DNA from: Janthinobacterium sp. TB1-E2
GTDB lineage: Bacteria > Pseudomonadota > Gammaproteobacteria > Burkholderiales > Burkholderiaceae_D
Assembly: GCF_036885605.1 (NCBI RefSeq)
Contig: NZ_CP142523.1
Span: 1,302,001-1,366,000 of the forward strand
Direction of reading: 5' to 3'
DNA length: 64,000 nt
The notes below the pieces were generated by a model. The model searched no databases, was not told the origin of the DNA, and saw nothing but the letters and a program-made list of their open reading frames with translations. Below, piece by piece: positions 31,034-64,000 of this stretch; positions within the stretch are counted from its first letter, which is position 1, and every line of letters starts with the position of its first letter. The position numbers were made by a program, and so were the translations under genes.

Positions 31034-32230
31034 TTAAATCACGGCGCCCAGCTTGAAAATCGGCAAATACAGGGCGATCACGAGGGAGCCGACCAGCACG
31101 CCCAGCACGACCATGAGCGCCGGTTCCAGCAGCGTGGAAAGGGTAGCCACCGTGGCGTCGATATCGGCTTCGATGATATCGGCCGCGCGCGACAGCATGG
31201 CGTCGAGGGCGCCCGATTCCTCGCCGATCAGGGCCAGTTGCGTGAGCAGCGGGGGAAACACGCCGCTGTGCTCCATGGCCAGGGCCAGGCTGCCGCCGGC
31301 GCGGATTTCACGCTCGATGCGCGTTGTCGCTTCCTGGTACAGCGCGTGGCCGGAGGCGGCGCCCACCAGGCCGAGCGAGTCGAGCAGCGGCACGCCGGCG
31401 GCGAACATGGCGGCCAGGGTGCGTGTCCAGCGGGCGATCGCCGCCTTGCGCAGAAGCGGGCCGAACACGGGCAGGCGCAGCGCCCGCAGTTGTGTGTTGC
31501 GCCGCAAGGCGGGCCAGCGGCGCCAGGCCAGGTGCAGCAGCACGCAAGCGAACACGAGCGCCGCCAGCAAGGCCAGCCAGTAATGGACGAGGAAGGCGGA
31601 CACGCCCATGACGACGAGGGTGGGCAGCGGCAAGGGCGCGCCGAAGCTGTCGAAGACCTGGCGGAAGGCGGGCACGACCACGCTCATGATGATGGCCGTG
31701 ACGACGATGGCGACAAGCACGATGACCAGCGGATACATCAGCGCGCCGCGCACTTGCCGCCGCAGGGCGATGGCCTTTTCCTGGTGGGTGGCCAGGCGCG
31801 CCAGCAAGTCCTGCACGATGCCGGCCTGTTCGCCCGCCGCCAGCAGGTTGCAATACAGCTCGTCAAACAGCAGGGGGAACTGGCGGAAGGCCTGCTGCAG
31901 GCTGCTGCCCGCTTCGATGTCGTGGCGCAAGTCGCGCATCAGCTCCGTGACGGCCGGTTTGGCATGGCCCTTGCCGGCGATGTCGAAGGCGTGCAGCAGC
32001 GGCACGCCGGCCGCCATCATGGTCGACAGCTGGCGCGTGAACAGGGCGATATCCTTGTGTGTGATGGCCTTGCCGGGCGCGGCGCGCGGGGCTTTTACCT
32101 TGCTGGCAAGGATGCCCTGGCGTCTGAGCGCGGCCTTGGCCGTGGTGGTGTCGGTCGCGCGCAAGATGCCATCGACCGCCTTGCCATGGCGATCCGTGCC
32201 TTTCCACGCAAAGCGCCGCTCGGCCGCCAT
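31034..32230 (-). CDS. pilC: PilC, type IV pilus inner-membrane platform protein
   Basis: A GspF/PilC-family polytopic protein that couples the assembly ATPase to pilus polymerisation. The 398-aa protein has two GspF repeats: the first from FTRQLSTMMAAGVPLLHAF, the second from WTRTLAAMFAAGVPLLDSL; each is followed by membrane segments. The start at ATG 32230 is fixed by AGGAGG 5 nt upstream; a GTG six bases earlier is too close to that box. pilD follows, but the usual upstream pilB is absent; an MFS gene lies there instead. Confidence 0.93.
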   Translation of the reverse strand: MAAERRFAWKGTDRHGKAVDGILRATDTTTAKAALRRQGILASKVKAPRAAPGKAITHKDIALFTRQLSTMMAAGVPLLHAFDIAGKGHAKPAVTELMRDLRHDIEAGSSLQQAFRQFPLLFDELYCNLLAAGEQAGIVQDLLARLATHQEKAIALRRQVRGALMYPLVIVLVAIVVTAIIMSVVVPAFRQVFDSFGAPLPLPTLVVMGVSAFLVHYWLALLAALVFACVLLHLAWRRWPALRRNTQLRALRLPVFGPLLRKAAIARWTRTLAAMFAAGVPLLDSLGLVGAASGHALYQEATTRIEREIRAGGSLALAMEHSGVFPPLLTQLALIGEESGALDAMLSRAADIIEADIDATVATLSTLLEPALMVVLGVLVGSLVIALYLPIFKLGAVI

Positions 32231-53559: not shown

Positions 53560-53602
53560 CAGGCTTTGTCGCTCCATCGAGGACAAACGCCAGTACAAGT
53601 TA

Positions 53603-53718
53603 TGCCTGATGACCATAGCAAGTTGGTCCCACCCCTTCCCATCCCGAACAGGACCGTGAAACAACTTTGCGCCGATGATAGTGCTGCAACCAGTGTGAAA
53701 GTAGGTTATCGTCAGGCT
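53603..53718 (+). rRNA. rrf: 5S ribosomal RNA
   Basis: About 116 nt from TGCCTGATGACC to GGTTATCGTCAGGCT; the two ends pair. The internal CCCATCCCGAACAGGACCG is the conserved 5S loop. Confidence 0.93.
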
Positions 53719-53727
53719 TGTTATTCG

Positions 53728-53764: not shown

Positions 53765-53874
53765 ACGTCTGATAGTTTGTTGGGCGCTGTCGGCTGACGC
53801 GCGCGGTGACACAAATACGTGTTGCAGCTGTTCCAAATTGATACATGGGCGGCCGGATGCGGGGCATATAGGCA

Positions 53875-53890
53875 TGGCATGGCATTTGCT
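53875..53890 (+). promoter_or_regulatory. Sigma-54 promoter of the cytochrome c550 gene
   Basis: TGGCATGGCATTTGCT: GG (53876-53877) and GC (53888-53889) are exactly 10 nt apart, as needed for RpoN. It ends 38 nt before the pedF-like ATG. Confidence 0.75.
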
Positions 53891-53927
53891 CTTCTTGGAT
53901 ATTCACTAAAAAACCAAGGAGACCAGC

Positions 53928-54413
53928 ATGACCTATTCGATTCGTACCCTGCTCGGCATGGCGGCCGCCGGCGCCGTCGCCCTCACTTCCCTGCTGACCT
54001 TGCCGCATGCCTATGCGCATGGCAACGTCACGCCGCAAGGCGTCGACACCACAGGCTTGCCCAAAGTGGGCGACAAGTGGCTCGAACAAAACCCGTATCG
54101 CGGCAACAAGCTGGCTCTGACGGTCGGCACCTCGGCCTACAACCAGAATTGCGCCCGCTGCCACGGCATCGAAGCCATTTCGGGCGGTATCGCGCCGGAC
54201 TTGCGCCAGCTGGACCGCGATTGCTTCGGTATCAAGAATGAGACAAAGAAACAGGCTTGCTACAAGGAGACGGACAATTACTACCTGACCACCATCCGTC
54301 ACGGTAAAGTGCGCAATGGCGCCGTGTACATGCCGCCGTTCGAAGGCGTGTTCAACCAGGAAGCCATGTGGGCCATCAAGACCTATCTGGAAACCCGCCG
54401 CGAATCCAATTAA
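53928..54413 (+). CDS. pedF: Cytochrome c550 (PedF-like) of PQQ alcohol oxidation
   Basis: A periplasmic haem-c protein of 161 aa with a signal peptide ending in HAYA and one haem site CARCH. The conserved PYRGNKLALTVG before the haem site and YMPPFEGVFNQEAMWAIKTYLE after it are typical of the cytochrome that takes electrons from quinoprotein ethanol dehydrogenase. AAGGAG precedes the ATG by 6 nt. It is transcribed from its own sigma-54 promoter with the binding-protein gene that follows after 25 nt. Confidence 0.88.
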   Translation: MTYSIRTLLGMAAAGAVALTSLLTLPHAYAHGNVTPQGVDTTGLPKVGDKWLEQNPYRGNKLALTVGTSAYNQNCARCHGIEAISGGIAPDLRQLDRDCFGIKNETKKQACYKETDNYYLTTIRHGKVRNGAVYMPPFEGVFNQEAMWAIKTYLETRRESN

Positions 54414-54438
54414 GTCGAACCGATCACGAAGGAGTCCC

Positions 54439-55272
54439 ATGCGTTCATTTCAACTCCGGGGCATGCGCGCGATGATCTCGCTCGCTTGCCTGGCGCTGTG
54501 CGCAGCCGCGCCGGCGCATGCCGACTGGCAGAAAGTGCAGCAGTCGGGCAGCCTGAAAGTGGCTGTATATAACGAGTTCGCGCCGTTTTCCGACAAGGGT
54601 GTAGGGATCGATATCGACATCGCCGAAGCGCTGGCGAAAAAGTTGGGGCTGAAACTGAGTTTGCTGCCATTTCCCGCCGGCGAAAATCTGAACGACGATT
54701 TGCGCAATATGGTGTGGAAGGGGCATTATCTCGGTTATGGCCCCGCCGACGTGATGCTGCATGTGCCGGTCGACAAGAAGTTGATGGCTGACAACGACAA
54801 GGTCGAGATCTTCGCGCCGTATTACGTGGAAACCGTGCGCCTGGTGCGCAGCGCGCAAGCGGTGCCTCAGTTTGATGGCGTCGCTTCGCTGGCAGGCAAG
54901 CGCATCGGCGTGGAAAAGGTGTCGATCGCGGCCATGCTGATGCTGGGCGAAGACAATGGCAAGTACCGCGACGACGTGCGCATCTTCGATACGGCCGCCG
55001 AAGCCTTGCAGCAATTGCAGGCGGGCAAGCTCGACGCCGTGCTGGCCAACCGTTCGGAAATCGAATCGGTGCTGAAAAGCGACCCCGCTTTCCCCTTGAG
55101 CGAAGTGGCGTTCGCCCGCTTGCCGCGTGCCGGCTGGGCCGTGGGCCTGGCCGTCAGCAAGCAACAGCTCGACGTGGCCAAGTTGCTGCAGGCAGCCATG
55201 AACGAGATGGCGGCCAGCGGCGAACTGAAAACGATCTTTGAGAAGTATGGCGTGAAGGAGGCGCGGCCCTGA
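54439..55272 (+). CDS. Quinoprotein-associated periplasmic binding protein (MoxJ/XoxJ-like)
   Basis: A 277-aa family-3 solute-binding fold with a signal peptide ending PAHA, then LKVAVYNEFAPFSDKGVGIDIDIAEALAKKLG. Family members are encoded next to PQQ alcohol dehydrogenases and, for XoxJ, are proposed to bind or activate the dehydrogenase rather than feed an ABC importer. No permease or ATPase gene is nearby, which supports that reading. The start at ATG 54439 has AAGGAG; a longer opening within pedF is a shadow. Its exact ligand is unknown. Confidence 0.85.
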   Translation: MRSFQLRGMRAMISLACLALCAAAPAHADWQKVQQSGSLKVAVYNEFAPFSDKGVGIDIDIAEALAKKLGLKLSLLPFPAGENLNDDLRNMVWKGHYLGYGPADVMLHVPVDKKLMADNDKVEIFAPYYVETVRLVRSAQAVPQFDGVASLAGKRIGVEKVSIAAMLMLGEDNGKYRDDVRIFDTAAEALQQLQAGKLDAVLANRSEIESVLKSDPAFPLSEVAFARLPRAGWAVGLAVSKQQLDVAKLLQAAMNEMAASGELKTIFEKYGVKEARP

Positions 55273-55289
55273 AGTAGCTTGCTCTGGTT

Positions 55290-55326
55290 TAAAAGCCCGC
55301 GCATCGGAAGAGGCGCGGGCTTTTTA
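55290..55326. terminator. Bidirectional terminator
   Basis: The stem AAAAGCCCGCGC / GCGCGGGCTTTTT with a 10-nt loop lies between the convergent binding-protein gene and the TonB receptor gene; it has A- and T-runs on both sides. Confidence 0.9.
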
Positions 55327-55329
55327 GTT

Positions 55330-57468
55330 TTAGAAACTATATTGGGCGCTGACACCCAGCAGCCAATTGCGTCCTGGCGCCGCTTCATAGTAGCGTTTGT
55401 TGCTGTCGCCGACGATGACGGAGCCCACGTAGGTCTTGTCGAAAAGATTGTTCAGGCGGGCAAATTCCTTGAAGCGCCAGTTCCCCACGTTTTGTTTGGC
55501 GTTGAAGCGCGCATTGAACACCGTGTAGCCGGGCGCCGGTTTTTCGATGTTGCTGTCTTCCGCGTAGACCTGGTTGCTGGCCACGCTTTCCAGCGCCGCG
55601 CAAAAGCGGTCGAGCTTATCTTTCCACGCCAATTCCGCGAACAGGTTGGCGCTGGGCACGCCAGGCAAACGGCTGCCTTCGCGCACGCTGCCAAACGCCT
55701 GGTCATACACGGCGTGCAGGCTGGTCAGTGCTACTTTTGCCGTGAAACCATATGGCAAGTTTGAGTCCAGCGACACTTCCATACCTTGGCGCAAGGTTTT
55801 ACCTGCATTGCGATAGCTGGTGCGCCCGCCGCTGGACTTGTCGACCACCAATTCGTCGTTGGTCTTGATCTGGAACACGGCCGCGTTTACGTGGGTGTTG
55901 TTGGCGATTCTCGCCTTGATGCCTGCTTCCAGGTTGGTGCTGGTGGCCGGTTTTAGCTGGTAATTGAAGCCGCCGCCCGTGCCCGAGTAAAACAGTTCAT
56001 TCAAGGTAGGCGCCTCAAAACCGCGCGCGGCGCTGGCGTACACGTTGACGCTCGGCGTCAGTTTATACAGCAGACCCAGCACCGGTGTCGTGTGGCTGAA
56101 TTCGAGGCTGCCGCTGTCGTTCCCATTGCTGAGATAGTGGTCGTCGACCGCCACTTTCATCTTGCTGTAGCGCACACCTGCGCTCAGCAGCCATGGGCCG
56201 CTTTGCCATTCCGTCTGGATATAGGGATCGAGGCTGGAGACGACATTCTGCTCGTCGCGGCGCAGCTTGCCTTTCACGCCAAACGTGTTGCCGATGTAAT
56301 TTTCATAGCCGGTGCGGTCATCGCTGGAGCGGCCGTAATCGATGCCGATGGTGGTGCTCAGCTTGCCGCCTGCCAACTGGTTCACATGTAGCCAGTTGGT
56401 ATCGATGCCGTAGAACTCACGCTGGAAGTCAACCACGCCGCCCGAATGGCTAGGCGGCGCCTGGAAGCCTTTGGTAAAAGCCTGGTACTGGATCACGTCG
56501 CGGTTGCCGCCATACACCATCACATGCAGGCGGTCGTCGCCGAACGACTGTTCATAGGTGGCGCCGATTTGCTGGTGGTCGATGCTCTTGCGCGTGTTGT
56601 AGCGCTCGGCCAGGGTGCGCTTCGGGTTTTGCGTGTCGCTCGCATCGGTTTCGCCAGCGCGCGGGTCGCGGGCAAACGTGGCCCAGGTGGCACCCAGCGG
56701 ATCTTGCGTGTTGCCTTGGTGCAGGCTGTTGGCAACGATGGTCAGCTTGCTGTCCGCATTGGGCTTGACGGTGATCTTGCCGAACGCCTGTTCGCGCGTG
56801 GCGGAGCTGTGATCGCGGAAACCGTCCGTGCGGAAGCGCGAGCCGTCGAGCACGTAGCCGATGCCGCCTGCCTGGCCTTGTGCCGTCAAGTCCACTTTGT
56901 TGGTGCCGTAGCTGCCGCCCACCACATTTAATTCGACGGACGGGGGATTTTGCCCATCCTTGGAAAACAGCTGGATCACGCCGCCCGAGTGGTTGCCGTA
57001 GATGGCAGAAAACGGTCCGCGCAGCACTTCGATGCGCTCGGCCGTATCGAGGTTGAAGGTGGCGGCCTGGCCTTGGCCGTCGGGCATGCTGGCAGGAATG
57101 CCATCGCTGATCAGTTTGACGCCGCGCACGCCAAAGGCCGAGCGTGCGCCGAAGCCGCGCGACGAGATCTGCAAGTCTTGCGCATAGTTCTGGCGGTTTT
57201 GCACGACCAGGCCCGGCACGGCGGCCAGCGCTTCTGACGCGTTGACGCGGATTTGGCCATCTTGGATGCGGGCGCTGTCGACGACGTCGATCGAGGCCGG
57301 CACTTCCTGGCTGGGATGGGCGATGCGGCTGCCGCTGACGACCACCGTATCCATCAGTTGCCCGTTGGCCGGGGCAGCTGCCTCGGCGGCAAAGACGTGG
57401 GGGGCGAGGGTAGCGCTGCCGGCGACAAACAAGCTGGCGATGGTGTTCAGGCGGAAACGGTGCTGCAT
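55330..57468 (-). CDS. pqqU: TonB-dependent receptor, YncD/PqqU-like
   Basis: An outer-membrane receptor of 712 aa. It has a signal peptide (ending HVFA), a TonB-box-like MDTVVVSGSRI, and a plug with SSRGFGARSAFGVRGVKLIS, DGIPASMPDGQGQ and IEVLRGPFSAIYGNHSGGV; the barrel ends in LLGVSAQYSF. The RGFGARSAFGVRG and DGIPxxMPDGQGQ stretches closely match E. coli YncD (PqqU), the known PQQ receptor. In this locus it would import PQQ for the dehydrogenase; import of a lanthanide complex is an alternative. GGAG lies 8 nt before the ATG and a sigma-54 promoter about 70 nt upstream. Confidence 0.85.
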   Translation of the reverse strand: MQHRFRLNTIASLFVAGSATLAPHVFAAEAAAPANGQLMDTVVVSGSRIAHPSQEVPASIDVVDSARIQDGQIRVNASEALAAVPGLVVQNRQNYAQDLQISSRGFGARSAFGVRGVKLISDGIPASMPDGQGQAATFNLDTAERIEVLRGPFSAIYGNHSGGVIQLFSKDGQNPPSVELNVVGGSYGTNKVDLTAQGQAGGIGYVLDGSRFRTDGFRDHSSATREQAFGKITVKPNADSKLTIVANSLHQGNTQDPLGATWATFARDPRAGETDASDTQNPKRTLAERYNTRKSIDHQQIGATYEQSFGDDRLHVMVYGGNRDVIQYQAFTKGFQAPPSHSGGVVDFQREFYGIDTNWLHVNQLAGGKLSTTIGIDYGRSSDDRTGYENYIGNTFGVKGKLRRDEQNVVSSLDPYIQTEWQSGPWLLSAGVRYSKMKVAVDDHYLSNGNDSGSLEFSHTTPVLGLLYKLTPSVNVYASAARGFEAPTLNELFYSGTGGGFNYQLKPATSTNLEAGIKARIANNTHVNAAVFQIKTNDELVVDKSSGGRTSYRNAGKTLRQGMEVSLDSNLPYGFTAKVALTSLHAVYDQAFGSVREGSRLPGVPSANLFAELAWKDKLDRFCAALESVASNQVYAEDSNIEKPAPGYTVFNARFNAKQNVGNWRFKEFARLNNLFDKTYVGSVIVGDSNKRYYEAAPGRNWLLGVSAQYSF

Positions 57469-57537
57469 GCGGATTCTCCAATGTGAATAAAAGCCTGCTT
57501 GGTCGCGTGCGCGGCGCAGGTCTGCATCTGTGTATCA

Positions 57538-57554
57538 AGCAATATGCCTGCCAT
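57538..57554 (-). promoter_or_regulatory. Sigma-54 promoter of the TonB receptor gene
   Basis: On the minus strand TGGCAGGCATATTGCT: GG and GC are 10 nt apart. It lies 70 nt upstream of the receptor ATG and about 37 nt from the divergent sigma-54 promoter of the beta-propeller gene. Confidence 0.65.
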
Positions 57555-57590
57555 GTCTCCATTGGTGGGCTGAAATTATACGCGTGTCAG

Positions 57591-57606
57591 TGGCACGGCG
57601 TTTGCA
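57591..57606 (+). promoter_or_regulatory. Sigma-54 promoter of the beta-propeller gene
   Basis: TGGCACGGCGTTTGCA is a near-perfect -24/-12 element (GG 57592-57593, GC 57604-57605). The predicted start is about 57617, 55 nt before the ATG. Confidence 0.85.
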
Positions 57607-57671
57607 TACAGCAATGTTCAGATGCGCCGATGCCGCGCGCTTTTTCTGTGTTTTGCCATCGAAAGGTGATT

Positions 57672-58628
57672 ATGCCCAACTTCTTCTCGCGCTTGCGCCA
57701 AGTGTGCTGGCTGCTGCCTGCGCTCGCCAGCAGTACCCTCCAGGCTGCTCCATTTGCCTATGTTCCCAATGAAAAATCGGGCACCTTGAGCGTGATCGAC
57801 ACGGCGACCGACCAGGTCGTGCGCCAGATTGCAGCCGGCAAGCGTCCGCGCGGCATCGCCGCCGACCCCACCGGGCGGCAATTGTTTGTCACGGACGCCG
57901 CCAGCAGCGCCTTGCTGCTGATCGATAACGCTGGCGGCACCCCCGTGCGCACTGTGGCGCTGGGTAAGTCGCCCGAAGGCGTTAGCGCCTCGCAAGATGG
58001 TAGTCACGTGGCCGTGGCCGTCGAGGAAAACAATAGCGTGGCCTTGCTCGATGGCCATTCCGGTACCTTGCTCGCCGATATCAAGGTACAGGGACGCAAC
58101 CCGGAACATGCCGTCTTCAGCCCCGATGGGCGCTGGCTGCTGGTCAGCGCGGAAGAGGCCGAACAAGTCGATGTCATCGATGTGGCGCAGCGCCGCCAGG
58201 TGGCGTCCGTCGCCGTTGGGCTGCGTCCGCGCGGCATCGGTTTCAGTCCGGACTCGGGCCGCGCCTACGTGGCGTGCGAACTGGTCAATGCCGTCTACGT
58301 GATCGACATGGCCGCGCGCAAGGCGGTTGCCACCATTCCCGCTGGCAAGAATGCAAACGGCATCGTGGTCCATCCCAGCGGCAAGCAGGTGTATGTCTCG
58401 AACGGTATCGATGGCACGGTGATGGTGATCGACACGGCCAGCAACGAGGTGACGGCCACCATTCCCGTTGGCAAGCGCCCATGGAACATGGCCATCACGC
58501 CCGATGGCGCCAAGCTGTATGTGGCCAATGGCCGCTCGAACAGCGTTTCCGTCATCGACACGGCCAGCGCGCGCAAGGTGGCCGATATTGCTGTAGGTGA
58601 ATTGCCATGGGGCGTGGTGATTCGCTAA
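57672..58628 (+). CDS. PQQ-catabolism-associated YVTN beta-propeller protein
   Basis: A 318-aa exported protein with a signal peptide (LLPALASSTLQA) and seven propeller repeats of the YVTN type, for example FAYVPNEKSGTLSVIDTATDQV, QLFVTDAASSALLLID and KLYVANGRSNSVSVIDTA. Such proteins recur next to PQQ-dependent alcohol oxidation genes, but their biochemical role is not established. The start at ATG 57672 follows AAAGGTG; upstream in-frame openings pass through the promoter. It ends before an inverted repeat at 58636. Confidence 0.85.
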   Translation: MPNFFSRLRQVCWLLPALASSTLQAAPFAYVPNEKSGTLSVIDTATDQVVRQIAAGKRPRGIAADPTGRQLFVTDAASSALLLIDNAGGTPVRTVALGKSPEGVSASQDGSHVAVAVEENNSVALLDGHSGTLLADIKVQGRNPEHAVFSPDGRWLLVSAEEAEQVDVIDVAQRRQVASVAVGLRPRGIGFSPDSGRAYVACELVNAVYVIDMAARKAVATIPAGKNANGIVVHPSGKQVYVSNGIDGTVMVIDTASNEVTATIPVGKRPWNMAITPDGAKLYVANGRSNSVSVIDTASARKVADIAVGELPWGVVIR

Positions 58629-58635
58629 TGGCACA

Positions 58636-58668
58636 GGAACAGGTGTTCCAGTCTGGTACACCTGTTCC
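58636..58668. promoter_or_regulatory. Inverted repeat, candidate activator (UAS) site
   Basis: GGAACAGGTGT and ACACCTGTTCC (11-bp perfect arms, 11-nt loop). It lies 109-142 nt upstream of the sigma-54 promoter at 58777, the right range for an enhancer-binding protein. A second palindrome CCCTTGTAACAAGGG is at 58728-58742. It has no T-run, so it is a weak terminator at best for the propeller gene. Confidence 0.5.
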
Positions 58669-58776
58669 ATTGTGCAGCGGCGCAAGCCCGGGCATGCGCT
58701 GAAAAGCACACCGGTATTGACGCTACGCCCTTGTAACAAGGGTAAAAGCGGCTAAGTTTGTAGTGGGATGCCGAGC

Positions 58777-58792
58777 TGGCACGGCATTTGCG
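58777..58792 (+). promoter_or_regulatory. Sigma-54 promoter of the aldehyde dehydrogenase operon
   Basis: TGGCACGGCATTTGCG with GG (58778-58779) and GC (58790-58791) 10 nt apart. It lies 89 nt before the ATG of the aldehyde dehydrogenase. Confidence 0.85.
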
Positions 58793-58880
58793 GAAGACTC
58801 CGTGTACTCACCCCATCTGTACCAGGACGTTTGATTTTAATTACAGCAATTCCATTCTAATTAACCCGATAGAGGACGAC

Positions 58881-60401
58881 ATGAATCTCGCAGACATCAG
58901 CAAACTGGGCGTAGCCAATCCCTTCAAACAACGCTATGACAATTACATCGGCGGCAAATTCGTTGCCCCGGTAAAAGGTGAATACTTTCCTAACATCACA
59001 CCGATCACGGGCTTGCCATTTTGCGAAATCGCCCGTTCCACGGCGGAAGATGTCGAGCTGGCCTTGGACGCGGCCCATGCCGCCAAGGATGCCTGGGGCA
59101 AGACTTCGCCTGCGGAGCGCGCCAATATCCTGAACCGCATCGCCGACCGCATCGAACAGAACCTGAGCCTGATCGCCACGGCGGAAACCATCGATAACGG
59201 CAAGCCGATCCGCGAAACGATGAATGCCGACATTCCGCTGGCCATCGACCATTTCCGTTATTTCGCCGGTTGCATCCGCGCGCAAGAAGGTTCCGTCGCG
59301 CAAATCGATGCGGAAACCTATGCCTACCACTACCACGAGCCGCTCGGCGTCGTGGGCCAGATCATCCCATGGAATTTCCCGATTCTGATGGCTGTGTGGA
59401 AACTGGCGCCAGCCCTGGCCGCCGGCAATTGCGTCGTGCTCAAACCGGCCGAGCAGACGCCGGCGTCCATCATGGTGTTGATCGAGCTGATCGGCGATTT
59501 GCTGCCGCCGGGCGTGCTGAACATCATCAATGGTTTCGGCCTGGAAGCGGGCAAGCCGCTGGCGTCGAGCAAGCGCATCGCCAAGATCGCCTTCACGGGC
59601 GAAACAGGCACGGGCCGCTTGATCATGGGCTACGCCGCGCAAAACCTGATTCCCGTCACCCTGGAGCTGGGCGGCAAGTCGCCGAACATCTTCTTTGAAG
59701 ACGTGATGGATGCGGACGATGATTATTTCGACAAGTGCTTGGAAGGTTTTGCCATGTTCGCGCTGAACCAGGGCGAGGTGTGCACCTGCCCATCGCGCGT
59801 GCTGATCCAGGAATCGATCTACGAAAAATTCATCGAACGCGCCCTGAAGCGCGTGGCCGCCATCAAGCAGGGCAATCCGCTCGATTCGTCCACCATGATC
59901 GGCGCGCAGGCGTCTCAGGAGCAGCTGGAAAAAATCTTGTCCTACCTCGACATCGGCCGCCAGGAAGGCGCCGAAGTGCTGGCCGGCGGCGAGCGCAACA
60001 CGCAGGCGGGCGACTTGGAAGGCGGTTACTACGTGCGTCCGACCGTGTTCAAGGGCAACAACAAGATGCGCATCTTCCAGGAAGAAATCTTTGGACCGGT
60101 CGTGTCCGTGACCACTTTCAAGGATGAGGCCGACGCGCTGGCGATTGCCAACGATACCTTGTACGGCCTGGGTGCCGGCTTGTGGACGCGCGACGGTTCG
60201 CGCGCCTTCCGTATGGGACGCGCCATCCAGGCGGGCCGCGTGTGGACCAATTGCTACCACCTGTATCCAGCTCACGCCGCGTTCGGCGGCTACAAGCAAT
60301 CGGGTATCGGCCGCGAAAACCACAAGATGATGCTCGATCACTACCAGCAAACGAAGAACTTGCTGGTGAGCTATAGCCCGAAAGCGCTGGGCTTCTTCTA
60401 A
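58881..60401 (+). CDS. Acetaldehyde dehydrogenase (NAD, ExaC/AcoD type)
   Basis: Oxidises acetaldehyde made by the alcohol dehydrogenase to acetate, in the cytoplasm. The 506-aa ALDH has the NAD-binding [20 protein letters not shown], the general-base Glu in LELGGKSPN and the catalytic Cys in [12 protein letters not shown]. The end [27 protein letters not shown], quoted here only for its key residues, is that of the ExaC/AcoD group. The start at ATG 58881 follows AGAGGA. DUF779 follows after 54 nt. Operon with DUF779 and the PQQ dehydrogenase, under a sigma-54 promoter. Confidence 0.94.
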
Positions 60402-60455
60402 ACCGGTACACGCGCCGCGCCTGTCGTCCAGGCGCGGCGCGCAGAAAGGGATGCC

Positions 60456-60845
60456 ATGAGTGCAGCAATTGCCCGGGTGGTCGCCACCGATGCGGCACTG
60501 GAAATGATGGACAAGTTGCGCCAGCGTCACGGCCCGCTGATGTTTTTCCAGTCGGGCGGCTGCTGCGACGGCAGCGCGCCCATGTGCTACGCGCTGGGCG
60601 AGTTCGATGTCAGCGACACCGACATCTATCTCGGCAATTTGAATGGTACACCGTTCTACATGGGACTCGAGCAATTCGAGTACTGGGAGCATACCCAGTT
60701 GATTATCGATGTGGTCGATGGCAATGGCGGCATGTTTTCACTCGACAACGGCACGGGCAAGCGCTTCTTGACGCGTTCGCGCCTGTTCACCGATGAAGAG
60801 TGCGCCTTGCTGCATGCCCAGCCGCATGAGCACCGCAAGACTTGA
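60456..60845 (+). CDS. DUF779 protein
   Basis: A 129-aa protein with no assigned biochemical role. DUF779 genes are usually adjacent to acetaldehyde dehydrogenase genes and often regulated with them. The Cys-rich SGGCCDGSAPMCY near the N-terminus and the acidic stretch after it suggest metal or redox binding, but that is speculative. It lies between the aldehyde and alcohol dehydrogenase genes on the same strand. Confidence 0.9.
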   Translation: MSAAIARVVATDAALEMMDKLRQRHGPLMFFQSGGCCDGSAPMCYALGEFDVSDTDIYLGNLNGTPFYMGLEQFEYWEHTQLIIDVVDGNGGMFSLDNGTGKRFLTRSRLFTDEECALLHAQPHEHRKT

Positions 60846-60881
60846 TACACACACATACTAATAAAACAGAGGGAGATGATT

Positions 60882-62633
60882 GTGCAGAAAAAAATCATGG
60901 GGATACTCGTCGGTTTGGGTTTGGCATCGCTGGCCCAGGCGGCTGACGTGGGCAATGTCACCAATGCCATGCTCGACAGCACGGCGAAGAATCCAGCCAG
61001 CGTCCTGTCGTTCGGCATGGGCACGCAGGGCCAGCGCTATTCGCCGTTAACGCAGATCAATGACAAGACCGTGGCCAAGCTGGTGCCGGCCTGGTCGTTC
61101 TCGTTTGGCGGCGAAAAACAGCGTGGCCAGGAATCGCAGCCGCTGATTCACAACGGCAAGATGTTCGTTACTGCATCGTATTCGCGCATCTTTGCCGTCG
61201 ACTTGAAAACGGGCGCCAAGCTGTGGAAGTACGAGCATCGCTTGCCAGACGGCATCATGCCCTGCTGCGACGTGGTCAACCGTGGTGCGGCCCTGTACGG
61301 CAACCTGGTGATTTTCGGCACGCTCGACGCCTATCTGGTGGCGCTGGACCAGAATACGGGCAAGATCGTCTGGAAAGAAAAGGTCGACGATTATGCGGCT
61401 GGCTACTCGATGACGGCCGCGCCGCTGATCGCCGAAGGCTTGCTGCTGACGGGCGTGTCGGGTGGCGAATTCGGCATCGTGGGGCGGGTCGAAGCGCGCA
61501 ACCCGATGACGGGCGACCTCGTGTGGAGCCGTCCGACGGTAGAGGGCCACATGGGCCACCGCTACGACAAGGATGGCAAGGCGATCGACAATGGCGTGTC
61601 CGGCACCGCGAACAAAACGTGGCCCGGCGACCTGTGGAAAACGGGCGGCGCCTCGACGTGGATGGGTGGTACCTATGATCCGCAAACCAAGCTTGCCTAC
61701 TTTGGCACGGGCAACCCGGCGCCATGGAACAGCCACTTGCGTCCCGGCGACAATCTGTACTCGTCGTCTACCGTGGCGCTGGACGTGAAAACGGGCCAGA
61801 TCAAGTGGGCGTATCAAAACACGCCGAACGACGCCTGGGATTTCGACGGCGCCAACGAATTCGTCACTTTCGATATGGATGGCAAGCGCTACGGCGGCAA
61901 GGCCGACCGCAACGGTTTCTTCTATGTGATCGACGCCAATACGGGCAAGTTGCAGAACGCCTTCCCGTTTGTGAAGAAAATCACATGGGCCAGCAGCATC
62001 GACCTGAAGACGGGCCGGCCCAACTTCATCGCCGCCGGCCGCCCCGGCGACCCGACCAAGGGAGAGGAAGGCAAGAAGGGCACGACCGTGTTTGCCGCGC
62101 CTGCTTTCCTCGGCGCCAAAAACCAGATGCCGATGGCCTACTCGCCGCAAACCAAGCTGTTCTATGTGCCGGCGAACGAATGGGGCATGGATATCTGGAA
62201 CGAGCCGATCAGCTACAAGAAGGGCGGCGCTTTCCTCGGCGCGGGCTTCACCATCAAGCCCTTGTTTGATGACTATATCGGCGCCATGCGCGCCGTCGAT
62301 CCGAAGACTGGCAAGATCGTCTGGGAAATCAAGAATAACGCGCCGCTGTGGGGTGGCGTGATGAGCACGGCCGGTAACCTGGTGTTCTACGGCACGCCGG
62401 AAGGTTTCCTGAAAGCCGTCGATGCGAAGACGGGCAAGGAACTGTGGAAATTCCAGACGGGCTCCGGCGTCGTGGCGCCGCCCGTCACGTGGCAGGATGG
62501 CGACACGCAATATGTGGCCGTCGTATCAGGCTGGGGTGGCGCGGTGCCGCTGTGGGGCGGCGAAGTGGCGAAGAAGGTCAACTTCCTGGAACAGGGCGGT
62601 TCCGTGTGGGTCTTCAAGCTGGCATCGAAGTAA
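60882..62633 (+). CDS. PQQ-dependent alcohol dehydrogenase, lanthanide-type motif
   Basis: A periplasmic quinoprotein that oxidises ethanol and other alcohols, passing electrons to cytochrome c550. The 583-aa protein starts at GTG 60882, 6 nt after GGGAG; an ATG at 60876 is too close to that box. It has a signal peptide (LGLASLAQA), an eight-bladed propeller with tryptophan-docking repeats ([27 protein letters not shown]), vicinal cysteines CC (128-129) and the catalytic Asp320 in AWDFDGANE. The next-but-one residue is Asp322; that extra Asp is the recognised mark of lanthanide-dependent enzymes (PedH/XoxF), while Ca enzymes have Ser, Thr or Ala. No haem-c domain is present, so it is the type I soluble form. 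Confidence 0.94.
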
Positions 62634-62640
62634 CGGGGTG

Positions 62641-62722
62641 AAGCACCCGGGCCACACGGATGGGTGTCTCCCTGTCTGCCGGGTGCTTTCTTTTTGCTGA
62701 CGGCCCAGGCCGTCAGTTTTTT
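62641..62722 (+). terminator. Tandem terminators after the dehydrogenase operon
   Basis: First stem AAGCACCCGG / CCGGGTGCTT (62641-62688, long loop) with a T-rich tail. Second stem CTGACGG / CCGTCAG (62697-62716) followed by six T. Confidence 0.8.
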
Positions 62723-62840
62723 GTTTACCTGGATGACAGATACGCATACTTGCGGTCAAAAAATGAACACTGTCAGTGGCGATTGATCCGCCGCTGCACA
62801 CGTTCAATACGCTTTTTTTCTTTCTCCCTCTGAGGCTTGC

Positions 62841-62857
62841 TGGGCACGCTTATTGCC
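62841..62857 (+). promoter_or_regulatory. Sigma-54 promoter of the porin gene
   Basis: GGGCACGCTTATTGCC with GG (62843-62844) and GC (62855-62856) 10 nt apart; one mismatch to the TGGCAC half. It lies 64 nt before the porin ATG. Confidence 0.65.
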
Positions 62858-62920: not shown

Positions 62921-64000
62921 ATGAACACATGGATCAAGCTGGGGAGCCTCGGTGTCATGACAATCGCAGCGGTGGGACAGGCGCAAGCCGTCGATATCAA
63001 GGCTGGCGACTGGACCGTGTCGGTGGGCGGCATCGTCAACGCCTACTACACGCAAGTGTCGTGTTCGGGCGATGCGGTGGGCGGGCTGGCGCTGGGCGGC
63101 CAGGCGCTCGGTTGCGGCGGAGAGAAGGACCGAACCACCATCGGCAACGGCTTGCTGCCCAACGGCTTGATCACCTCGGCGAGCTCGAGGCTGGGCGAGT
63201 ACGACGTGAAAGCCTTGATCGGCATCTACAACTCGACGGCCACGGACAGCGCCATCAGCCAGAACAGCGTGGTCGACGTGCGCCAAGCCTTCTTCACGTT
63301 TGGCAATGAGCAGATGGGCACCTTCAAGCTGGGCCGCGACTATGGCATCTTCGGCGCGAACGCGATTTTGTCCGACATGACCTTGCTGGGTTCGGGCGCA
63401 CCCGTGCAGGCGACGCAGCGTGGCCGCGTGACCCTGGGCCATATCGGCGCCGGCTATACCTATCTGGGCAACTATGGCCAGATCATGTACAGCTCGCCGA
63501 AGTCGGGTGGCGTTGGCGTCGATGTGGCGCTGGTCAGTCCGGTCTCCGATACGCCCATCGTGGCAGGCTCGACCTATTCTTCGAAGTCGAGTCCGCAAGT
63601 GCAGGCGCAGCTGACGTATGCGCAGGAAGGGTTGAAGGCGTGGCTCGGCGTGAAGTCGCAAAAATTCACCTCGAAAACGCCAGGAGTCGATGACCTGACC
63701 ATGCGCGGCGTGGAAGTGGGTGGCTCGTACCAGATGGGCCCGGCTAGCGTACTGGTCAACTTCCAGGGCGGCAAGGGGCTCGGTATCTTGTCCGATGCGG
63801 ACCAGGGCGATACCAAATCGAAGAACTGGCTGCTGCAAGGCACGTATAAAACGACGGACAAGCTGAAGCTGGGTTTGTCCTACGGCATCAGCAAGAACGA
63901 CGACAACACGGCCGGCACGGGCGGCTTGAAGTCGAACGCCAACCTGACCCTGGGCGCGTATTACTCGCTCAACAGCGCGATCACCCTGGTAGGCGAGCTG
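62921..64000 (+). CDS. Porin, 5' part
   Basis: The first 360 codons of a Gram-negative general porin; the 3' end is beyond the window. It has a signal peptide (MNTWIKLGSLGVMTIAAVGQAQA) and a barrel start with VSVGGIVNAYYTQ. The repeating amphipathic strands include RQAFFTFGNEQMGTFKLGRDYG, quoted only by its key part. AGGAGAAG precedes the ATG. It does not show as a closed open frame because no stop occurs before 64000. It shares a sigma-54 promoter type with the PQQ genes, suggesting it admits alcohols or other substrates of that pathway. Confidence 0.88.
   Translation, partial: MNTWIKLGSLGVMTIAAVGQAQAVDIKAGDWTVSVGGIVNAYYTQVSCSGDAVGGLALGGQALGCGGEKDRTTIGNGLLPNGLITSASSRLGEYDVKALIGIYNSTATDSAISQNSVVDVRQAFFTFGNEQMGTFKLGRDYGIFGANAILSDMTLLGSGAPVQATQRGRVTLGHIGAGYTYLGNYGQIMYSSPKSGGVGVDVALVSPVSDTPIVAGSTYSSKSSPQVQAQLTYAQEGLKAWLGVKSQKFTSKTPGVDDLTMRGVEVGGSYQMGPASVLVNFQGGKGLGILSDADQGDTKSKNWLLQGTYKTTDKLKLGLSYGISKNDDNTAGTGGLKSNANLTLGAYYSLNSAITLVGEL

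Follow-up and report, generated by a model that had tools for sequence, protein, structure and literature searches.

The stretch considered here, referred to below as the window, comprises 64,000 nucleotides (bases 1302001-1366000) of the 6.31-Mb single-contig genome of Janthinobacterium sp. TB1-E2. Towards its end begins a cluster of about 16 kb for alcohol oxidation dependent on pyrroloquinoline quinone (PQQ), which runs on past the window into a fetched stretch numbered L002. The genes lie in the order cytochrome c550, solute-binding protein, TonB-dependent receptor (minus strand), beta-propeller protein, the acetaldehyde dehydrogenase ExaC, a DUF779 protein, PQQ alcohol dehydrogenase, porin-like protein, NosR-like protein, the flavin transferase ApbE and an enhancer-binding protein (minus strand). 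Their units are preceded by -24/-12 elements of the sigma-54 (RpoN) type, and these elements, together with the regulator that may act on them, are the subject of this account. The cluster is flanked on both sides by ribosomal RNA (rRNA) operons, with rRNA at window 53598-53722 (5S end near 53720) and the next 16S start near L002:6840. Pieces of rRNA also lie beside the cluster, on either side, in 7 of 80 fetched loci with the same dehydrogenase (L015, L018, L022, L025, L028, L036, and L065), and the contigs of many relatives stop near the cluster edge.

A sequence-only reading of the window had placed one -24/-12 element before each of five transcription units, with GG and GC exactly 10 nt apart. 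All five were found, at positions that agree within one base and with that distance in every case: TGGCATGGCATTTGCT at 53875..53890 (+) for the cytochrome c550 unit, TGGCAGGCATATTGCT at 57538..57553 (-) for the receptor, TGGCACGGCGTTTGCA at 57591..57606 (+) for the beta-propeller gene, TGGCACGGCATTTGCG at 58777..58792 (+) for the aldehyde/alcohol dehydrogenase operon, and the weaker GGGCACGCTTATTGCC at 62842..62857 (+) for the porin unit. The common core TGGCA-N6-TTGC ascribed to them is present in four; the porin element has GGGCACG and carries a C after TTGC. The sigma-54 consensus has been given as TGGCACG-N4-TTGC (PMC4676750). A further element, also conserved in relatives, precedes the gene for the enhancer-binding protein (L002:6405-6420, genome 1371405-1371420, minus strand).

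Are such words rare enough to be telling by themselves? With up to one mismatch, the window contains 35 copies of TGGCA-N6-TTGC, where 30.2 would be expected; the count by consensus is therefore unremarkable and was dropped as evidence of significance. Six matches in the window are exact, four of them elements named above, while the others lie at 31960 and at 58318 (-), the latter within the beta-propeller gene. Across the whole genome the exact pattern is found 120 times and its reversed form 39 times. The longer pattern TGGCACG-N3-TTTGC is found exactly in three places only, two of them in the cluster and one before the methylisocitrate lyase and methylcitrate synthase genes. This last element (genome 4261244-4261259, minus strand, L003:10244) matches the aldehyde dehydrogenase element over 15 bases. 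It is a fitting positive control, since rpoN1 mutants of Ralstonia solanacearum are reported not to grow on propionate and control by PrpR/RpoN is known in some bacteria (PMC4676750).

Conservation was followed in the home locus and 14 loci of the same gene order from other Oxalobacteraceae genera (Duganella, Rugamonas, Massilia, Pseudoduganella, and Telluria), which are related to one another, so that the counts are not independent. The remainder of the 80 fetched loci were omitted: the Janthinobacterium loci L008-L011 and L028, L014, whose sequence begins within the operon, and 60 of other gene order. Elements were scored with a matrix modelled on published frequencies, taking the best score in the 250 nt upstream of each start. 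A score of at least 15 was reached in the leaders of the cytochrome (14/14), the receptor (14/14), the beta-propeller gene (15/15), the aldehyde dehydrogenase (15/15), and the enhancer-binding protein (14/14). The porin leaders score 11.4-12.1, at least 11 in 14/14 and at least 15 in 0/14, so that, across the five units together, all 72 leaders carry an element. By contrast, none of 69 starts internal to operons (solute-binding protein, DUF779, alcohol dehydrogenase, NosR-like, and ApbE genes) reaches 11. Among 1720 shuffled leaders, 3 reach 15 and 51 reach 11; among 4000 random 250-nt windows from fetched parts of the home genome, the numbers are 15 and 144.

The presence of elements in these leaders and their absence at internal starts strongly support sigma-54 control of all five units. 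It had been argued that such repetition was unlikely by chance; the word count gives no help here, and it is conservation that contradicts chance. Could the matches nevertheless be chance words of a GC-rich genome? The one-mismatch count and the exact match inside the beta-propeller gene would suit such a view, but it is already contradicted by elements that are conserved across genera amid diverged flanks and that are missing from internal starts, and we regard it as exceedingly improbable. In the region between the receptor and beta-propeller genes, the two elements are the sole strongly conserved blocks. The N4 spacers vary between constant blocks, with the exception of the receptor. Unlike the others, the receptor element TGGCAGGYAWATTGCW (57538-57553, minus strand) is near-invariant over its full length, spacer included. 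Some additional constraint acts on it.

Several of these leaders also contain a 17-bp palindrome, TGTTCC-N5-GGAACA, which is a candidate activator site. It is found in the cytochrome, aldehyde dehydrogenase, porin, and activator leaders, and before a distant kinase/response-regulator pair. In the home locus it occurs as TGTTCCAAATTGATACA (10 of 12 positions) at 53829..53845 (+) upstream of the cytochrome unit, as TGTTCCAGTCTGGTACA (11/12) at 58644..58660 (+) in the aldehyde dehydrogenase leader, with a weaker copy (9/12) 19 nt beyond it at 58663-58679, and as TGATCCGCCGCTGCACA (9/12) at 62784..62800 (+) upstream of the porin gene. Measured from the GG of the element, a palindrome of at least 9/12 lies at 40-62 nt before the cytochrome unit (14/14 loci), at 52-127 nt before the aldehyde dehydrogenase (15/15, although L019 has only 9/12 with a tied match elsewhere), and at 52-54 nt before the porin gene (13/14). 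In the Janthinobacterium loci L008 and L028, the aldehyde dehydrogenase palindrome is 221-224 nt from the GG.

In the 400 nt upstream, every cytochrome (14/14), aldehyde dehydrogenase (15/15), and porin leader (14/14) has a palindrome of at least 9/12, as do 12/14 activator leaders; the same level is attained by 3/69 internal starts, 12% of shuffles, and 418/4000 random windows. At 10/12 or better, the numbers are 12, 13, 5, and 12 leaders, respectively, against 0/69 internal starts, 1.1% of shuffles, and 72/4000 random windows. In the activator leaders, a pair of copies spaced 19 nt apart follows the element and precedes the start codon; this position downstream of the element makes autoregulation of the activator, of either sign, likely.

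Twelve places in the genome match the palindrome with no or one mismatch. Those at 1013656 and 1360644 have an element of at least 15 at 54 and 127 nt, respectively. At 277140, no element of at least 12.5 was found in its stretch, and at 3321425 the sole nearby element overlaps the palindrome inside an open frame. For six of the other eight, none of the 100 listed exact TGGCA-N6-TTGC places (of 120) is closer than 10 kb, and two (5601869 and 5674589) fall outside the range of those 100. The pair 1029657/1029795 was dropped, its element lying, by eye, in a run of collagen-like repeats.

The palindrome at 1013656 is perfect and precedes genes for a short HisKA_3 kinase and a LuxR-type response regulator (L088:5993-7566, genome 1011993-1013566, minus strand). 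The kinase is present in 24 of 40 genus genomes (E <= 1e-60), and in all 24 a perfect palindrome and an element precede it, with a spacing of 52-74 nt; the element scores 17.6 in 23 of them and 14.0 in L106. A TonB receptor gene adjoins the pair.

Which protein could read these sites? The genome has one match to the RpoN DNA-binding domain PF04552 (E 6.5e-65), and twelve strong and three weak matches to Sigma54_activat. One of the strong matches, at 1369678-1370166, lies just beyond the window in the last gene of the cluster (L002:6231-4243, minus strand), which converges on ApbE. It had been noted that no activator gene lies in the window, which is correct, and that the activator was probably encoded elsewhere, which is not borne out: this candidate lies 3.2 kb beyond the window, as the final gene of this very cluster, which the window edge had cut short. 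The protein has 662 residues, with GAF, AAA+, and HTH_8 domains and GAFTGA at residue 427. Among 25 of its 27 NCBIfam matches, none is AcoR and none is at its cut-off; from its architecture, we take it to be of the AcoR type.

Outside this gene order, the dehydrogenase was followed in the other 60 loci, which are likewise related among themselves and do not give independent counts. The scored stretch, 400 nt before the gene and the first 60 nt of it, was available in fifty-nine (L076 has too little upstream DNA). The dehydrogenase has an element of at least 12.5 in 52 of them and of at least 15 in 16; a palindrome of at least 9/12 is present in 50, and palindrome and element together in 48. 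In four of the seven loci lacking an element (L032, L033, L035, and L041), one precedes an aldehyde dehydrogenase further upstream; of the remaining three, L029 is cut there, while L062 and L085 score 10.3 and 11.4. From the 52 of 59 loci, sigma-54 control is predicted for this dehydrogenase clade in Cupriavidus, Ralstonia, Variovorax, Noviherbaspirillum, and others. A relative of the NosR-like protein is present in 22 of the 60 loci.

The cluster is probably a sigma-54 regulon serving to oxidize short alcohols in the periplasm by means of a scavenged cofactor, run at the palindrome-bearing units by the cluster's own AcoR-type activator. The GAF domain of this protein would sense the alcohol or its aldehyde; the activator would bind the palindromes and drive RpoN-RNA polymerase at the -24/-12 promoters. 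Its targets would be the cytochrome c550 unit, the ExaC-DUF779-alcohol dehydrogenase operon, the porin-NosR-like-ApbE operon, and the distant kinase/response-regulator pair. The divergent sigma-54 promoter pair would yield the PqqU-like receptor and the beta-propeller protein, with PQQ entering from outside through the receptor. The sequence itself shows the elements, the palindromes, the genes, and how they are conserved; from there we infer that the cluster's activator reads the palindrome, what its inducer is, that PQQ is transported, and where the operons begin and end.

A number of results weigh against this proposal. The genome encodes eleven further strong enhancer-binding protein matches. 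Allowing two mismatches, the palindrome occurs 129 times in the genome and its reversed pattern 122 times, an absence of enrichment that leaves the candidate site resting on position and conservation. The porin leader of L017 has only 8/12 at the usual place and enters the count of 14/14 through a match elsewhere. Among the loci of other gene order, L020 has elements before both the aldehyde dehydrogenase and the alcohol dehydrogenase, and the activator homologue has an element of at least 12.5 in only 11 of 30 loci.

Two further adverse results lead to rival explanations. At the receptor/beta-propeller pair, a palindrome of at least 9/12 is present in 0/29 leaders; nor was one found in the 450 nt upstream or by alignment, and no alternative site is conserved there. 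The palindrome thus serves three of the five units only, and a single activator for all five is not established. The idea of one sigma-54 regulon therefore holds for sigma-54 at all five units, by conservation, and not for one shared activator. The units might instead all be driven by RpoN with two activators, the AcoR-like protein at the palindrome units and another enhancer-binding protein, responding for example to a need for PQQ or metal, at the receptor and beta-propeller genes. Both elements of the pair are conserved although the palindrome is missing, the constancy of the receptor element extends into its spacer, and the three further PQQ enzymes of the genome, described below, would need PQQ too. 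Set against this are the position of the pair within the cluster, with the aldehyde dehydrogenase palindrome about 1 kb away, the lack of any conserved alternative site, and reports that enhancer-binding proteins can activate more weakly without a site (PMC8899819). Two activators are a serious possibility, at somewhat less than even odds.

The activator-leader palindromes, being downstream of the promoter element like repressor sites, fit autorepression as well as activation. In addition, the AcoR motif of Clostridiales is reported to be distinct from the TGT-N10-12-ACA class of sites (PMC6615313). The palindrome might then be read by a different regulator, such as a response regulator or a repressor, while the neighbouring enhancer-binding protein reads something else. 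However, that class is reported for fifteen groups of enhancer-binding proteins (PMC6615313), and the TGT-N11-ACA of the palindrome falls inside it; moreover, the palindrome occurs together with a -24/-12 element at four units of the cluster and at one unit outside it. A different reader is accordingly improbable, and the cluster's own activator remains the preferred one.

What do the genes of the cluster encode? The first, a cytochrome c-550 of the PedF family (53928..54413, +), scores 199 bits with TIGR04494 (cut-off 122). It is followed by a periplasmic solute-binding protein of family 3 (54439..55272, +; PF00497), weakly MoxJ-like with 35 bits against a TIGR03871 cut-off of 212. The beta-propeller protein (57672..58628, +) belongs to a type associated with PQQ-dependent catabolism, with 220 bits below the TIGR03866 cut-off of 287. 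ExaC (58881..60401, +) exceeds its NF050026 cut-off (950 against 900 bits), and the DUF779 protein (60456..60845, +) matches PF05610 at 2e-44; the DUF779 gene, between the ExaC and alcohol dehydrogenase genes, is retained in relatives of the same gene order. The outer membrane protein at 62921..64000 (+), continuing to L002:1081, matched no Pfam or NCBIfam family, and its label "porin" comes from the earlier reading. Beyond the window follow the NosR-like protein (L002:1127-3241), with FMN_bind and Fer4_5 domains and 593 bits below the NF046105 cut-off of 1000, and, after it, ApbE (L002:3231-4241).

The PQQ alcohol dehydrogenase (60882..62633, +) scores 753 bits with TIGR03075 (cut-off 480), and its best named matches are from Janthinobacterium (96-98% identity). 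Its best matches in the PDB are 6zcw and 6zcv (E 1e-248, 830 and 828 bits), listed there as quinoprotein ethanol dehydrogenase, ahead of ExaA (1flg, 675 bits). We take 6zcw/6zcv to be PedH. At residues 319-323, the protein has WDFDG where ExaA has WDFSG, an aspartate replacing serine; the aspartate is present in 78 of the 80 loci, and in two the pattern was not found. An aspartate at the position of the ExaA/PedE serine has been linked to lanthanides (PMC5487730). The enzyme is presumably of the lanthanide type and would need a lanthanide.

The receptor (55330..57468, -) has its best PDB matches in Escherichia coli YncD/PqqU (E 1.8e-157, residues 40-710, 529 bits). The PqqU paper counts twelve residues in contact with PQQ (PMC12124388), and nine of these (Q84, K274, R304, Q308, Q310, R365, N477, Y481, and R536) were checked and are all identical. 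The NCBIfam equivalog NF041535, although by far the best family, is matched with 653 bits against a cut-off of 1200; the receptor is therefore called a PqqU homologue and not a certified PqqU. It is probably a PQQ importer.

Where would the cofactor come from? There is no match to PqqC in the genome, and the best match to PqqE, with 54 bits, stays below the cut-off of 381. The PqqC model exceeds its cut-off in 47 of the 195 genomes of the family, which indicates that it works, and in 0 of 14 control genomes. PqqC was not found in any of 13 sampled genus members, and PqqE clears its cut-off in 5 of the 40 genus genomes. The genome nevertheless encodes four full-length PQQ enzymes, the cluster dehydrogenase and three of the membrane glucose/quinate/shikimate family (genome 3337495, 3218129, and 2261751; TIGR03074, 1003-1052 bits, cut-off 833), whose genes have neither a -24/-12 element nor the palindrome. 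This soil bacterium thus appears unable to make PQQ.

In the family sample, the dehydrogenase occurs without PqqC in 25 genomes, 24 of which also encode a homologue of PqqU (at 60% identity or more in 20 and at 38-48% in 4), and with PqqC in 29 genomes, 20 of which have one. Fisher's test gives 1.3e-6 for the receptor type of at least 60% identity, which is not a fair probability, because the genomes are related and 12 of the 25 holders without PqqC belong to the genus itself. These presence tables score five to six first-look candidates per genome, and absences in them are not firm; among 13 genus members, 11 match at 98-100% identity and G048 at 57%, and G190 shows no match. To carry PqqU without synthesis is a known strategy, and biosynthesis genes are reported in only 23% of PqqU producers (PMC12124388).

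A wider scheme can be offered as speculation. In PQQ non-producers of this family, PQQ import, the lanthanide-type ethanol dehydrogenase, the cytochrome, and the flavin/iron-sulfur NosR-like module might form one sigma-54 scavenging regulon, in which alcohol is read by the AcoR-like protein, PQQ or metal is read at the receptor pair by a second enhancer-binding protein, and the two-component pair stands downstream of the first. If true, such a regulon would replace the PedR1/PedS2-PedR2 logic of Pseudomonas. In the main reading given earlier, the cluster already couples the uptake of a shared cofactor to the utilization of a carbon source, and it does so in a genus where PQQ synthesis genes are missing from most sampled members; this is relevant to PQQ sharing in soil communities.

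How does the cluster compare with known systems? Ethanol regulation by RpoN and an AcoR-like protein is in principle already known, because in R. solanacearum growth on ethanol requires rpoN1, and the AcoR-like Rsc3129 has been assigned to the ExaC homologue Rsc3128 with a predicted RpoN promoter (PMC4676750). The Janthinobacterium cluster would resemble this system in linking ethanol use to RpoN through an AcoR-like enhancer-binding protein and ExaC. Two loci of other Ralstonia (L068 and L071) have relatives of the activator (57%), ExaC (69%), the cytochrome (62-63%), and the dehydrogenase (78%), with elements and palindromes. In contrast to the targets proposed here, those of Rsc3129 in the partial table available from PMC4676750 comprise ExaC only, with no cytochrome, porin, receptor, or alcohol dehydrogenase among them, and the accompanying section gives no activator site. 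In the literature searched, largely that outside subscription, no report was found that places a PedH-type dehydrogenase or PqqU under sigma-54, nor one that carries the principle over to the lanthanide-type enzyme, the cytochrome, the porin, the kinase pair, and the PQQ importer of a PQQ non-producer and gives a defined candidate site.

AdhR with sigma-54 in Clostridium beijerinckii (PMC7017808) and BmoR in Thauera (PMC8899819) are similar in combining an enhancer-binding protein and upstream sites with alcohol metabolism. However, the AdhR enzymes are reported to be iron- or zinc-type dehydrogenases, and the BmoR promoter drives an alkane monooxygenase. The receptor shares its homology and the nine contact residues with E. 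coli PqqU, but its gene lies in a divergent sigma-54 promoter region and is clustered with a PQQ enzyme; sigma-54 is not mentioned in the available part of PMC12124388. The ped cluster of Pseudomonas putida (PedE, PedH, and PedF) has in common with the present one a PedF-type cytochrome and a quinoprotein ethanol dehydrogenase that carries an aspartate of the PedH type. Its genes, by contrast, are controlled by PedR1/AgmR and PedS2/PedR2 (PMC13390443), and the portions available of PMC13390443 and PMC12997753 describe no RpoN control of them. The analysis thus offers a testable rule for the lanthanide-type alcohol dehydrogenases of Burkholderiales: they would be governed by RpoN and by an AcoR-like activator for which a candidate site is defined, whereas in Pseudomonas control lies with PedR1 and PedS2-PedR2.

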